A stretch of 64,000 nucleotides of DNA from Aggregatilineales bacterium (GTDB lineage: Bacteria > Chloroflexota > Anaerolineae > Aggregatilineales > Phototrophicaceae): the NCBI GenBank assembly GCA_030834905.1, contig JAUQWZ010000024.1:124001-188000 (forward strand), written 5' to 3'. Below are positions 4,496 to 17,350 of this stretch, in pieces. Below the pieces are notes generated by a model. The model saw only the letters and a list, made by a program, of their open reading frames with translations, was not told the origin of the DNA and ran no database searches. Each line of letters begins with the position of its first letter. Positions within the stretch are counted from its first letter, which is position 1. A program made the translations under genes and the position numbers.

Positions 4496-4588
4496 GTGAC
4501 CAGCTTCGCCCAGCCGAACCGCTATGCTTATTACTACTACTTTAGCGGCGACATAGTCGAGGGTCGGGCGTTGCCTACTGCGAAGTAG
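4496..4588 (+). CDS. Putative Tyr/Phe-rich leader peptide of the aro operon attenuator
   Basis: A 30-codon frame starts at GTG 4496 with AGGA at 4484-4487, 8 bases upstream, and stops at TAG 4586. Codons 10-16 read Tyr-Ala-Tyr-Tyr-Tyr-Tyr-Phe, with another Phe at codon 4. An alternative in-frame GTG at 4478 would add two more Phe codons. It sits between a promoter and a terminator hairpin, directly ahead of chorismate mutase, DAHP synthase and prephenate dehydrogenase. This is the arrangement of enteric pheA/trp leaders, in which ribosome stalling at scarce charged tRNA prevents termination. The layout is seen in the sequence; the mechanism is inferred. Confidence 0.7.
   Translation: MTSFAQPNRYAYYYYFSGDIVEGRALPTAK
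4575..4588 (+). promoter_or_regulatory. GNRA-capped hairpin over the leader stop codon
   Basis: CTACT and AGTAG pair around a GCGA tetraloop, and the 3' arm contains the leader stop codon. AAGTAGT (4583-4589) can instead pair with ACTACTT inside the Tyr codon run (4536-4542). The two structures are mutually exclusive, as expected of ribosome-controlled folding. Confidence 0.5.
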
Positions 4589-4610
4589 TCGGAATAAACC
4601 GGGTGCATTC

Positions 4611-4646
4611 AAGGCGCAGAGCAATACGCTCCGCGCCTTTTTTATT
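4611..4646 (+). terminator. Rho-independent terminator (attenuator) before aroH
   Basis: AAGGCGCAGAGC pairs with GCTCCGCGCCTT (11 of 12 positions, one A-C mismatch) around a 5-base loop. A run of T follows directly. It lies between the leader peptide stop and aroH, so it would end transcription unless an alternative fold forms. Confidence 0.85.
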
Positions 4647-13451: not shown

Positions 13452-14816
13452 ATGGCGGACAACCGAAGCTATACCGAAATGACCAAAGAGGCGGTGCTCA
13501 GCACTATCGAGGAGCAGGGAATCGCCTTTTTCATCCTGTGGTTCACCGATATCACCGGCATCGTCAAGAGCGTGACCGTACCCGCCAGCAAGATTGCCGA
13601 CGTCATAGACGACGGGATGCACTTCGATGGCTCGTCTCTGGAAGGGTTCGCCCGCGTCGCTGAAAGTGACATGGTGCTGATGCCCGACCTGAGCACGTTC
13701 GTGGTGCTGCCCTGGGATGACACCGACGAGCGCACCGCCCGGCTGATCTGCAATGTGCAGACGCCGGAAGGCAGCCCGTTTATCGGCGATCCGCGCAACG
13801 TGCTTATCCGGGCGCTGAAGGAAGCGGAGCAGGCGGGTTATTCCTTCAAGACGGGAATGGAACTGGAGTTTTTCCTGTTCCGCAATGACAAGGAAAAGGG
13901 CATGTTCCCGCTGACGCCGTATGACGACGCCAGCTATTTCGACATCTCCAACGATTTCGCCCAGAGTATGCGCCGCAAGCTGATCTCGACGCTCAGTTCG
14001 CTGGGGATTCGCGTCGATTCAGCGCATCATGAGATCGGAGCGGGGCAGTATGAAGTTGATTTTGACTACAAACACGCGCTGGTGTCGGCAGATCAACTGC
14101 TGACGGCGCGGGTGGCGCTGCGAACCGTCGCCCAACGCAATCACATTCACTGCACCTTCATGCCGCGCCCATCCACCGACCTGCCGGGTTCGGGGATGCA
14201 CACCCACCAGAGCCTGCACGATCTGACGACTGACGCCAATGTGTTTGCCGATAACGATCATGAGTATGGGCTGTCGGAAACGGCACGCTACTTCCTCGCC
14301 GGGCAGTTATGCCACGCGCGGGCGATGTGCGCGGTACTGGCTCCACTGGTCAATTCATATAAGCGGCTGGCGGTGAGCTTTGAAGCGCCCAAATACGTGA
14401 CCTGGGCGCATGTCAACCGCGCCGGAGCCGCCCTGATTCGCGTGCCGCACATTTCACCCGGCAAAGAGGCGCATACCCGGCTGGAACTGCGCTGCCCAGA
14501 CCCAAGCAGCAATCCCTATCTTGCCAGCGCGGTGATGCTGGCGGCTGGCTTGGATGGTATTCAGCAGCGAATGCCGCTGCCAGATGCGATTGAAGAGTCG
14601 CTGCTGCGCCAGGATCGCAGCCGGATGCGGCAGGTTGAAACGCTGCCAGCGTCGCTGGAAGAAGCGCTCGACGCGCTGGAACAGGACGATGTGATTCTGT
14701 CGGCGCTGGGTCCTTACGTGGGCGACCGGTATATCGCGGCGAAACGGCAGGAACTGGAAGATTATCACCGTCAGGTTACACCCTGGGAAATCGACCGTTA
14801 CATCAGCCGCTATTGA
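13452..14816 (+). CDS. glnA: Glutamine synthetase, type I
   Basis: ATP-dependent amidation of glutamate. The 454 aa chain has the GSI beta-grasp N-domain with FDGSSLEGFARVAESDM, which resembles the GSI-alpha subgroup. MELEFFLF and EIGAGQYEVDF supply metal ligands, GSGMHTHQSL the glutamate site, and RLELRCPDPSSNPYLA the ATP/catalytic region. The adenylylation Tyr motif of GSI-beta (NLYDLPP-like) is absent near the C-terminus, so control is probably feedback or protein-based. NRAGAALIRVP has two extra residues compared with the usual NRSALIRIP. GGAAGG lies 7 bases before ATG 13452. Glutamine feeds the anthranilate synthase step of the adjacent trp pathway, a plausible reason for linkage. The 3' end overlaps the opposing lysC end by 14 bases. 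Confidence 0.95.
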   Translation: MADNRSYTEMTKEAVLSTIEEQGIAFFILWFTDITGIVKSVTVPASKIADVIDDGMHFDGSSLEGFARVAESDMVLMPDLSTFVVLPWDDTDERTARLICNVQTPEGSPFIGDPRNVLIRALKEAEQAGYSFKTGMELEFFLFRNDKEKGMFPLTPYDDASYFDISNDFAQSMRRKLISTLSSLGIRVDSAHHEIGAGQYEVDFDYKHALVSADQLLTARVALRTVAQRNHIHCTFMPRPSTDLPGSGMHTHQSLHDLTTDANVFADNDHEYGLSETARYFLAGQLCHARAMCAVLAPLVNSYKRLAVSFEAPKYVTWAHVNRAGAALIRVPHISPGKEAHTRLELRCPDPSSNPYLASAVMLAAGLDGIQQRMPLPDAIEESLLRQDRSRMRQVETLPASLEEALDALEQDDVILSALGPYVGDRYIAAKRQELEDYHRQVTPWEIDRYISRY

Positions 14817-16203
14817 GGATGAGCTGGTGAAGCAGGCGCAGTGTGTGCTCGCCCCGCTGCGGCTCGACCACCAGCGTCAGGCTGCTGCGCCCTGGTGCCA
14901 GCGCCAGCACGCGAATGCCGTCGAGCGCGTTCAGTACGCCCGGCGTCAGGCTGTGCAGGCTGTCCAGGCGGGTGCCAATGACGGTAATGACGGCGACGGG
15001 CATCATCGTCCAGTCGTTTTCGGGCAGCGCTGGCAGCCGTTCCTCAAGCGCGACCTGAAGATTGTGCAGCGCGTCCGATCCGGCGCTGGTCGAAATGACG
15101 AAGCAGACGAAGCTGTGTGACGATGACTGTCCGGCAATAGTGACCCCGGCATGAGTGCCGCTGACGCCAAACAACGTTTCATCCACCAGCGCCGCCAGTT
15201 GGTGGATCGGTCCCCCGTGTGGGGCGGTCAGTCCCAATCCCCGCGTTGACGTGACCGCTTTCAGCGAAGGCGCTGCGTTGTCCGGCTGGGCGGTGACCAG
15301 GGTGCCTGCCGCCTGCGGCTTAAAGACATTGCGGATTCGCAGCGGCACGCGCCGCCGCTTGAGGGGTCCGATCATACGCGCGTGGAGAATGCGCGCGCCA
15401 AACGAGGCAAGCTCCGCTGCTTCATCGTAAGACATCAGCGGAATCACCTGCGTGTCGCTGACCTCGCGCGGGTCGGATGTCATGATGCCATCGACATCTG
15501 CCCAGATCCACACTTCGGCGGCGTCGGTACAGACTGCCAGCACCGACGCGGTGTAATCGCTGCCGCCGCGCCCCAGCGTCGTTGGCTTGCCGGTCACGGT
15601 TGAGGCGATGAAGCCGGTAATGACCGGAATGATTTTGCGTTCCAGCATCGGCGCGAGCAGTTCGTTGATACGCTCGCGGGTGAGTTCGAGATTCGGCGTG
15701 GCATTGCTGTAGACGTTATCGGTCACGATCAGATCGGTCGCGTCGATGGCGACGCCCCGCAGCCCATTCTGGCGCAGCAGCGCGGCGACGATGCGCGACG
15801 ACAGGCGCTCGCCAGTGCCGATGATCGAGTCGATCACTTCTGGGTTCGGTTTTTCACCGTGGCGGTCTGCCAGACTCTGGCACAGATCGAGCATGTCAAA
15901 CAGCAGCCGGTCAACATCGGCTTGCAGCGAAACGCGCTCGGTGGGTCCCAGCGGAAGCTGCTCAATGAGAGCCAGATGGCGCGTGCGCAGCGTAGCAGCG
16001 ATACGGCGGTAACCCCGGCGATTTGACAGTTGGGCAAGATGCGAGGCTTCGATCAGCGCATCGGTCACGCCTTCCAGCGCTGAAACCACTAACAGCAGTT
16101 GATCCCACCGTTCGGCTTCGTGAAGGACGATGCTTAAGACCTGCGTCAGCCCGGTGGTCATGCCAACGGACGTTCCGCCGAACTTCATGACAAGCGTGCT
16201 CAT
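14803..16203 (-). CDS. lysC: Aspartate kinase
   Basis: Phosphorylates aspartate, the entry to Lys, Thr, Met and Ile. The 466 aa chain opens with VMKFGGTSVG, the amino acid kinase signature. IIGTGERLSSRI, TLGRGGSDYTAS and WADVDGIMTSDPR follow for substrate and ATP binding. Residues from about 320 to the end form two ACT domains (LGLTAPHGGP and VAVITVIGTR strands), the usual site of feedback control. It is transcribed alone, against glnA, from a good promoter whose leader contains a terminator-like hairpin. Confidence 0.93.
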   Translation of the reverse strand: MSTLVMKFGGTSVGMTTGLTQVLSIVLHEAERWDQLLLVVSALEGVTDALIEASHLAQLSNRRGYRRIAATLRTRHLALIEQLPLGPTERVSLQADVDRLLFDMLDLCQSLADRHGEKPNPEVIDSIIGTGERLSSRIVAALLRQNGLRGVAIDATDLIVTDNVYSNATPNLELTRERINELLAPMLERKIIPVITGFIASTVTGKPTTLGRGGSDYTASVLAVCTDAAEVWIWADVDGIMTSDPREVSDTQVIPLMSYDEAAELASFGARILHARMIGPLKRRRVPLRIRNVFKPQAAGTLVTAQPDNAAPSLKAVTSTRGLGLTAPHGGPIHQLAALVDETLFGVSGTHAGVTIAGQSSSHSFVCFVISTSAGSDALHNLQVALEERLPALPENDWTMMPVAVITVIGTRLDSLHSLTPGVLNALDGIRVLALAPGRSSLTLVVEPQRGEHTLRLLHQLILNSG

Positions 16204-16226
16204 GTGATTATCCGGTGGAAGTAAGC

Positions 16227-16266
16227 AAAAAAAAGGAAACGCGAGCTTTCGCTTCGCGCTTCGCGT
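16227..16266 (-). terminator. Terminator-like hairpin in the lysC leader (candidate attenuator)
   Basis: Read on the - strand, ACGCGAAGC pairs with GCTCGCGT (8 bp, one bulged A, 11-base loop). After TTCC comes a run of eight T. It lies downstream of the lysC promoter and upstream of the lysC ATG, so it would stop lysC transcripts unless relieved. Confidence 0.55.
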
Positions 16267-16289
16267 AACTCAACGTAAGATGGTAACTC

Positions 16290-16318
16290 AAACTAGCATT
16301 TTGCGAAAAATTTGTCAA
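16290..16318 (-). promoter_or_regulatory. Sigma-70-type promoter of lysC
   Basis: On the - strand, TTGACA (16318-16313) is followed after exactly 17 bases by TAGTTT (16295-16290). The predicted start near 16283 gives a leader of about 80 bases. Confidence 0.6.
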
Positions 16319-16387
16319 TACTTTGAGAAGCCAGAGTATTCAGTATGATCGTTACGTTCTGCACGACTATCTTCGCAGGTGAACCGT

Positions 16388-17350
16388 ATGACGGAAATGA
16401 CACTCGAACGGCAGCGGATGGTTGCCGGTGTTCGATTTCACAGAGTTGGCAAGTTATACCATTTTGACTACAGTGAGTACCCTCAGCTTCAAACGGGCGA
16501 TTATGTGATCGTCGAAACCACGCGCGGTCGGCAAATGGGGCAGGTGATGGGCTTCACGGGGGTTGAGGACGAGAGCCGCGACTACAAGCCGATCATGCGG
16601 ATGGCATCCCCGCGCGACCTTGTGCTGAGCCAGCACTGGGAAGCGCAGCAGGAAGATACCATCCGCATCTGCCGCGACAAGGCGAAGGAATTAGGCGGAT
16701 TCAACGACGTAAAGTTTGTCGCCGCCAGCTACAATTATGATGGCAGCCTGCTCACGTTTCTGTTCAGCGCCGAGGACAAGACCAACGTCAGCCGCCTGTG
16801 GGCGGAGATGAACAAGATTTTCTCGGCGCAGATCGAAATGCGGCAGATTGGTCCTCGCGACGTTGCCAAGCTGCTGGGCGGCTACGGGGCGTGCGGCATT
16901 TTGCGCTGCTGCAGTACTTTCCTGACCGATTTCAGCCCGATCTCGATCAAGATGGCGAAGGCGCAGGGCATCTCGCTGAATCCTTCCGAGATTACCGGCA
17001 TGTGCGGGCGGCTCCGCTGCTGTCTCGTCTATGAATACGAGCAGTATGTCGAAGCGCGCCAGAAGCTGCCCAAGAAGAATAAGCGCGTCGGTACGCCGTT
17101 TGGCGAAGGCAAGGTGCTGGATGTGCTGCCGCTTCAGGATGCGGTGCTGGTGTACGTGGCGGAAGCCTACCACGTCGTCAAGCGCGAAGAGCTGGTGCCG
17201 CTGGATGAACTGGAAGCGCTGGCGAAGAAAGCGAAGGAACCCTGCACCGTTCACGGTGACGGACCCTGCGAGTGCGGCGCGAAGCCGGGCAAGGCACAAC
17301 CGCCGGATGCTGGCGCGGAAACTGCCAGCGATGAAGGCACTGAGTCCTAG
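16388..17350 (+). CDS. ricT: PSP1/RicT-family protein
   Basis: Homologue of B. subtilis RicT (YaaT), a subunit of the Fe-S-containing RicA-RicF-RicT complex that works with RNase Y in mRNA maturation. The 320 aa chain contains the PSP1 core with GYGACGILRCCSTFLTDF and MCGRLRCCLVYE, the Cys cluster thought to bind an iron-sulfur centre. The N-terminus has a VIVETTRGRQMGQV barrel strand. The C-terminus adds a Cys-containing tail (CTVHGDGPCECG) and a disordered acidic end, an extra possible metal site. ATG 16388 is preferred because AGGTGA lies 7 bases upstream; GTG 16379 overlaps that site. No ricA/ricF is seen nearby. Confidence 0.9.
   Translation: MTEMTLERQRMVAGVRFHRVGKLYHFDYSEYPQLQTGDYVIVETTRGRQMGQVMGFTGVEDESRDYKPIMRMASPRDLVLSQHWEAQQEDTIRICRDKAKELGGFNDVKFVAASYNYDGSLLTFLFSAEDKTNVSRLWAEMNKIFSAQIEMRQIGPRDVAKLLGGYGACGILRCCSTFLTDFSPISIKMAKAQGISLNPSEITGMCGRLRCCLVYEYEQYVEARQKLPKKNKRVGTPFGEGKVLDVLPLQDAVLVYVAEAYHVVKREELVPLDELEALAKKAKEPCTVHGDGPCECGAKPGKAQPPDAGAETASDEGTES

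Follow-up and report, generated by a model that had tools for sequence, protein, structure and literature searches.

A hairpin followed by eight T lies between a conserved promoter and the start codon of an aspartokinase gene (lysC-like) in a Chloroflexota genome of 5.29 Mb. On balance, we favor the explanation that the hairpin, together with the T8 tract, acts as an intrinsic terminator within the aspartokinase mRNA leader. The hairpin probably trims aspartokinase transcription, and it would most likely be a promoter-proximal attenuator, either fixed or released by a trans-acting factor.

Results

The hairpin precedes one of two aspartokinase genes

We analyzed a stretch of 64,000 nucleotides ("the window") from an Aggregatilineales bacterium (G000). 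The original prediction for this locus was a TTGACA-17-TAGTTT promoter, a hairpin, a run of eight T, and the lysC ATG, in that order, and this arrangement is present on the minus strand, with a spacer of 17 between the two hexamers (Table 1). The hairpin had been described as an 8-bp GC stem. It is there, but it is longer: the stem has 11 pairs (7 G-C, 3 A-U, and 1 G-U), with one bulged A and a GAAA loop. Similarly, the hairpin was said to follow the promoter by about 20 bases; this is its distance from the expected start site, but it begins 27 nt past the -10 hexamer. We rejected the idea that the hairpin is a genomic repeat, as the genome has a single copy even if up to 3 mismatches are allowed.

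Table 1. Features of the lysC-like locus and other leaders and RNA elements of the same genome. Positions without a contig or locus name are those of the window.
Feature	Position	Strand	Basis or remark
-35 hexamer TTGACA	16313..16318	-	promoter rule (see text)
Extended -10, TGC then TAGTTT	16290..16298 (TAGTTT 16295-16290)	-	recurs in relatives
Predicted 5' leader of aspartokinase mRNA	16204..16283	-	start site placed from the -10
Hairpin GAAGCGCGAAGCGAAAGCTCGCGTTTC	16236..16262	-	sequence reading and folding
T8 tract, one base past the hairpin	16227..16234	-	sequence reading
Aspartokinase gene, lysC-like, AA_kinase domain	14803..16203, ATG at 16203	-	Pfam, NCBIfam
Divergent neighbor, RicT/PSP1-family gene	16388..17350	+	our gene caller; GTG at 16379 is an alternative start
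aro leader	4496-4645	+	
Second aspartokinase	G000:C38:112552-113952		
Leader of second aspartokinase	L002:1327-1398	+	
hisH-like gene	G000:C58 250366-250980	-	
argC-like gene	G000:C58 29234-30235	+	
T-box	L106:2671-2901	-	140 kb of the genome searched
T-box	L097:18729-19005	+	140 kb of the genome searched
TPP riboswitch	L103:8500-8611	-	140 kb of the genome searched
6S RNA	L097:6404-6580	+	140 kb of the genome searched

The downstream gene matches TIGR00657 (NCBIfam) above the cut-off and is an aspartokinase. The genome has a second aspartokinase, which is 36% identical to the lysC-like protein. Pfam scores ACT domains in the second enzyme, unlike in the lysC-like protein, where none scores at E <= 0.001. 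(Full-length aspartokinase models nevertheless cover the lysC-like protein.) From these domain assignments, feedback control of the lysC-like enzyme may differ from that of the second enzyme.

The promoter is conserved

We found orthologs of the lysC-like protein in 89 of the 98 family genomes searched (E <= 1e-120). Upstream regions were taken for 84 of these 89 genomes (G118, G090, G116, G080, and G108 were left out). One region, L018, was dropped as its contig ends within the gene, and five further loci were added, which gave 88 regions, 84 of them distinct. (The five relatives that are in named collections are metagenome-assembled genomes labeled Chloroflexi, Anaerolineae, or Phototrophicales.) The promoter rule was an exact match to TTGACA-17-TG[CT]TA...T. 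It holds in 32/84 distinct regions, often with the longer motif CAAAATGCTAGTCTCA; variants are therefore counted as having no promoter, and the promoter may have been lost from L032 and L037, whose regions stop at a contig edge. A crude consensus scan did not list the lysC promoter, and its -10 fits 3/6 consensus positions. Judged by its conservation, the lysC promoter is real.

The motif does not seem to define a regulon. In six genomes, it matched lysC and 0 to 2 other sites each (6 in total, versus 1 for the reversed-pattern control), and since all of these other sites have three mismatches, we rejected a shared regulon.

A protein tree with 44 rows places G000 in a group with G008, G009, G010, and G011 (support 99/84), and all five have the promoter. 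Among promoter-bearing orthologs, the leader ranges from 10 nt (G008) to 113 nt (G014). This wide variation in the distance from promoter to ATG is expected if the promoter drives the gene, which bears on another way to read the locus. Promoter and terminator could together yield an independent small RNA about 55 nt long, with aspartokinase expressed from a promoter below the hairpin. There is a GATAAT at 16212-16207, adjoining the ATG on its upstream side, but no fitting -35 precedes it, and we consider a separate small RNA very improbable.

The hairpin and T8 score as a terminator

A G+C-rich stem followed by a U-tract is the usual form of an intrinsic terminator, and the 11-pair stem with T8 has this form. 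We scored it with d, a formula after d'Aubenton Carafa, calibrated on gene ends and mid-gene stretches. The lysC hairpin has d = 13.7, which was equaled by 0/40 dinucleotide shuffles. In the same genome, higher scores occur in 1/333 mid-gene stretches versus 23/162 gene ends, and 13.7 is just below the lower quartile (14.3) of the positive gene-end scores. On paper, this would be a terminator of moderate strength. It lies between the promoter and the start codon, as a conditional attenuator would, with the start site predicted from the -10.

Other measures were less telling. Taken in full, the leader shows no unusual folding stability (z = -1.01; 27/200 shuffles were as good), and 12 kb of sequence has no excess of terminator-like sites (9, versus a mean of 10.5 in shuffles). 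Loose terminator criteria are uninformative because 156/233 matches of a looser scan fall inside genes.

Among 135 upstream regions from 400 kb of the same genome, the lysC leader ranks 8th by d. Scores of d > 10 are uncommon in this set, with nine regions including that of lysC. Three of the other eight match Rfam (two T-boxes and one TPP riboswitch), and three have an evident leader peptide: those of aro (an AroH-like chorismate mutase), a hisH-like gene, and an argC-like gene. (Names given without a family search, such as hisH-like and argC-like, are our reading of the protein sequences.) The last two have neither an Rfam match nor a leader peptide; one precedes a DEAD-box helicase-like gene, and in the other, the hairpin may belong to the preceding gene. 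So, six of the eight comparable leaders have the appearance of genuine attenuators, and the main circumstantial case for a terminator in the lysC leader rests on this.

Hairpins recur in lysC leaders across the family

We scored lysC leaders, control leaders, and ortholog regions without the promoter with the same d and the same 90-nt rule. The controls (n = 234, from four genomes) came from our own crude gene caller. They exclude the lysC leaders of G000, G011, and G064, which we removed, and of G069, which the set did not contain. Scores of d > 0 were found in 8/32 distinct promoter leaders, versus 14/234 controls (p = 0.0018) and 0/52 ortholog regions without the promoter (p = 0.00024), although these p values overstate independence as the orthologs are related. 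At d > -25, the counts were 18/32, 44/234, and 5/52, respectively. At d > 10, the excess over controls was not significant (3/32 versus 12/234, p = 0.26; 0/52 without the promoter). The eight leaders with d > 0 are from G000, G009, G010, G064, G069, G061, G063, and G066, and include two close pairs.

In 19/34 leaders scored (18/31 distinct), at most 2/40 shuffles were as good as the real sequence. Where a candidate hairpin is present, it ends 15-33 nt before the ATG in 21/25 distinct leaders. A candidate is absent from 6/31 distinct leaders, which counts against a terminator. Outside the group with CGCGAG arms, described below, the stems differ widely in sequence. The common element is a hairpin that sits close upstream of the ATG and is followed by a U-rich tail. 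Such a pattern is what weak and rapidly shifting selection on a terminator would be expected to leave, though it does not prove one. As originally proposed, the hairpin lies within the transcript that the promoter would start.

Conservation of the stem in relatives had been proposed as a check on the original prediction. Among the four nearest relatives, the stem is kept in three (G009, G010, and G011), but T8 is found in none, which counts against a terminator, so that the original prediction passes this check only halfway. These three have the stem CGCGAG/CTCGCG with a tail that is U-rich but lacks a long run of T; the copy in G000 is CGCGAA-N7-CTCGCG followed by T8. The scores of the three also count against a terminator (d = 4.5 for G009, 1.4 for G010, and -2.9 for G011), as does G008, a member of the same clade whose 10-nt leader has no hairpin.

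The kept stem with a merely U-rich tail would suit a post-transcriptional role. As a stem in the 5' UTR, the hairpin might make the mRNA more stable or influence how ribosomes load, and the U-rich stretch might serve as a standby site or as a site for ribosomal protein S1. Four leaders (L040, L043, L047, and L054) end with a U-rich stretch and then a Shine-Dalgarno-like stretch, and in four others (L038, L039, L041, and L042), the 5' end pairs in a stem that closes at a distance of exactly 10 nt upstream of the ATG. We think that a post-transcriptional role is fairly unlikely: it would not need a straight T8 one base past the stem, and long-range pairing between the 5' and 3' ends is significant (p <= 0.05) in only 3/27 leaders. 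For the latter reason, we rejected a family-wide 5'-3' closing stem and kept it only as a lead for a subclade.

The four leaders just mentioned, which form this lead, belong to orthologs in genus g13. Their 5' end, GCCGCA/GTCGCAA, can pair with TGCGGC/TTGCGAC, and a G-rich stretch lies beside the 3' partner. At one pair, both bases have changed, from C-G to T-A. Of the four, only L041 and L042 are singly significant. Translational control in this subclade is possible, judging from these pairings.

Besides the pairing, the letters of the arms are conserved, which a plain terminator would not need; this counts against a terminator as well. The same stem recurs in another genus, in G069 and G065. 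The pair just outside CGCGA(G), read by eye, is G-U in G000, G010, and G011, G-C in G009, and A-U in G069. Since the arms hardly vary, these changes in the outer pair say little about whether RNA or DNA is recognized, even though pairing is kept. The inverted repeat CGCGAG-N6/7-CTCGCG could be a DNA operator, where a repressor bound shortly past the start site would stop the polymerase. Both arms are kept to the letter in five genomes from two genera (G009, G010, G011, G069, and G065), at a spacing of 6 or 7, and the copy in the window is one letter off, at a spacing of 7. But the spacing is not fixed. With exact matching, which would miss degenerate sites, the other matches in G009, G010, G011, and G069 are spaced 3, 5, or 8, so that no regulon at 6-7 appears; G065 has two further sites, and G004 has one at spacing 6. 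Furthermore, the pattern is not rarer than chance, and the reversed control is commoner in 7/8 genomes. We judge an operator to be distinctly unlikely, and still favor an intrinsic terminator.

The leader contains no recognizable switch

If the terminator is conditional, the leader might encode the switch. The original prediction was that there is neither a lysine riboswitch nor a leader peptide, and our searches agree on both. First, covariance models for the lysine riboswitch (RF00168) and the T-box (RF00230) do not match the lysC leader. With E up to 5, the only Rfam matches in the region are to two snoRNA families, far below their gathering scores, and the corresponding loci of 16 relatives have no match up to E = 2. 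The lysine riboswitch was found in 0/16 family genomes, versus 4/14 control genomes. We rejected the lysine riboswitch, the T-box, and other Rfam families on these grounds.

Second, the lysC leader has no ATG or GTG frame of at least 8 codons. One TTG frame runs through the hairpin, with 2 Lys codons, and across leaders, no frame listed has more than 3 Lys. Without a run of Lys codons, we rejected a leader-peptide attenuator.

Third, we found no antiterminator. In G000, upstream pairing with the 5' arm of the hairpin is no better than in shuffles (p = 0.86), and the same holds at p > 0.05 for 13/14 leaders tested, with only L057 below 0.05. This led us to reject the idea that the leader encodes an antiterminator mutually exclusive with the hairpin.

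A lysine riboswitch, T-box, or leader-peptide attenuator could have been missed, and other amino acid genes of this genome do use T-boxes and apparent leader peptides. Given the searches above, we give this hardly any credence.

Apparent leader peptides elsewhere in the genome

The aro leader in the window was originally described as an attenuator. It is of the attenuator type: a GTG frame encodes YAYYYYF, and the terminator after it is strong (d = 49.0). In the corresponding place, G011 has YYYYFSGYIVEG (by eye, and assuming a TTG start). The leader peptide of the hisH-like gene is MRFQHHHHLHIKFPVLA, with a strong terminator after it (d = 50.1); in G011, MIGLHHAHQHMSPAPQVYASGS is found at the hisH-like gene. 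The argC-like gene has MDVLNPIHSPRRRRSRRPQTNEVMPGFLR, which contains a stretch of seven codons with six Arg, and here too the terminator that comes next is strong (d = 39.1).

The leader of the second aspartokinase encodes MFCHFMTTGMGTTTPHRYTVRGH, which is rich in Thr and Met, and continues with GCGTGTGGAAACCCCCACACGC and T6. It is apparently an attenuator of the ribosome-mediated type. With apparent His, Arg, Tyr, and Thr/Met leader peptides in the same genome, the peptide-less lysC leader seems to be the odd one out.

Discussion

Under the explanation that we favor, RNA polymerase would start at the conserved promoter upstream of the hairpin. A share of the polymerase would stop about 50-57 nt after the start, and the remainder would read into the aspartokinase gene. 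As we found no switch-like element in the leader, either the switch would come from outside or the attenuator is fixed. The terminator might simply set a fixed low read-through. Alternatively, a trans-acting factor (an RNA-binding protein or an elongation factor) might raise read-through when amino acids of the aspartate family are short. Overall, the original interpretation is partly supported; its proposal of conditional termination, through an RNA-binding protein or initiation-coupled control, stays a hypothesis.

The locus can be compared to several known systems. Ribosome-mediated attenuators, such as the his, trp, and thr leaders, also carry a terminator within the leader, ahead of genes for amino acid biosynthesis, but we found neither a leader peptide nor an alternative antiterminator stem in the lysC leader. 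The lysine riboswitch (L box) precedes lysC of E. coli and B. subtilis, which is the same kind of gene; the leader here is about 80 nt and does not match the covariance model. Attenuators with short leaders are known from E. coli ampC and B. subtilis pyrG, where a hairpin terminator is also near the start site, with no long leader. However, neither the start-stop codon pair of ampC nor the initial G-run of pyrG is apparent in the lysC leader.

A mapped parallel, and an example of intrinsic terminators in 5' UTRs that have no known switch, is E. coli ispU (uppS). One report (PMC7815308) describes a novel 3' end in its 5' UTR, where a stem-loop of 6 bp is predicted together with eight U (terminator score 14.1). 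As in the lysC leader, a simple hairpin and eight U precede the start codon, and in the passage concerned the premature 3' end is not ascribed to a known element. The differences are that the 3' end was mapped in E. coli, whereas the lysC leader is known from its sequence, and that the two score scales differ. (The same report names E. coli lysC among the riboswitch-regulated genes with Rho-dependent termination.) A literature search, partly judged by title and so no proof of absence, found nothing on aspartokinase leaders or leader-peptide attenuation in Chloroflexota.

A broader reading is that a short leader with a conserved promoter controls one of two aspartokinases in a family in which no lysine riboswitch was found (0/16 genomes). 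This reading is speculative, and we consider it unlikely as it stands. It includes, jointly, conditional termination without a peptide, an aptamer, or an antiterminator stem, with an RNA-binding or elongation factor that would read the hairpin directly; the two together are unlikely to the same degree.

If the hairpin is only a fixed terminator, then it is ordinary. What makes the locus interesting is that, in this lineage, we found none of the controllers usual for lysC. For control of the lysine branch in an organism with two aspartokinases and no lysine riboswitch, this leader offers a small, testable target.
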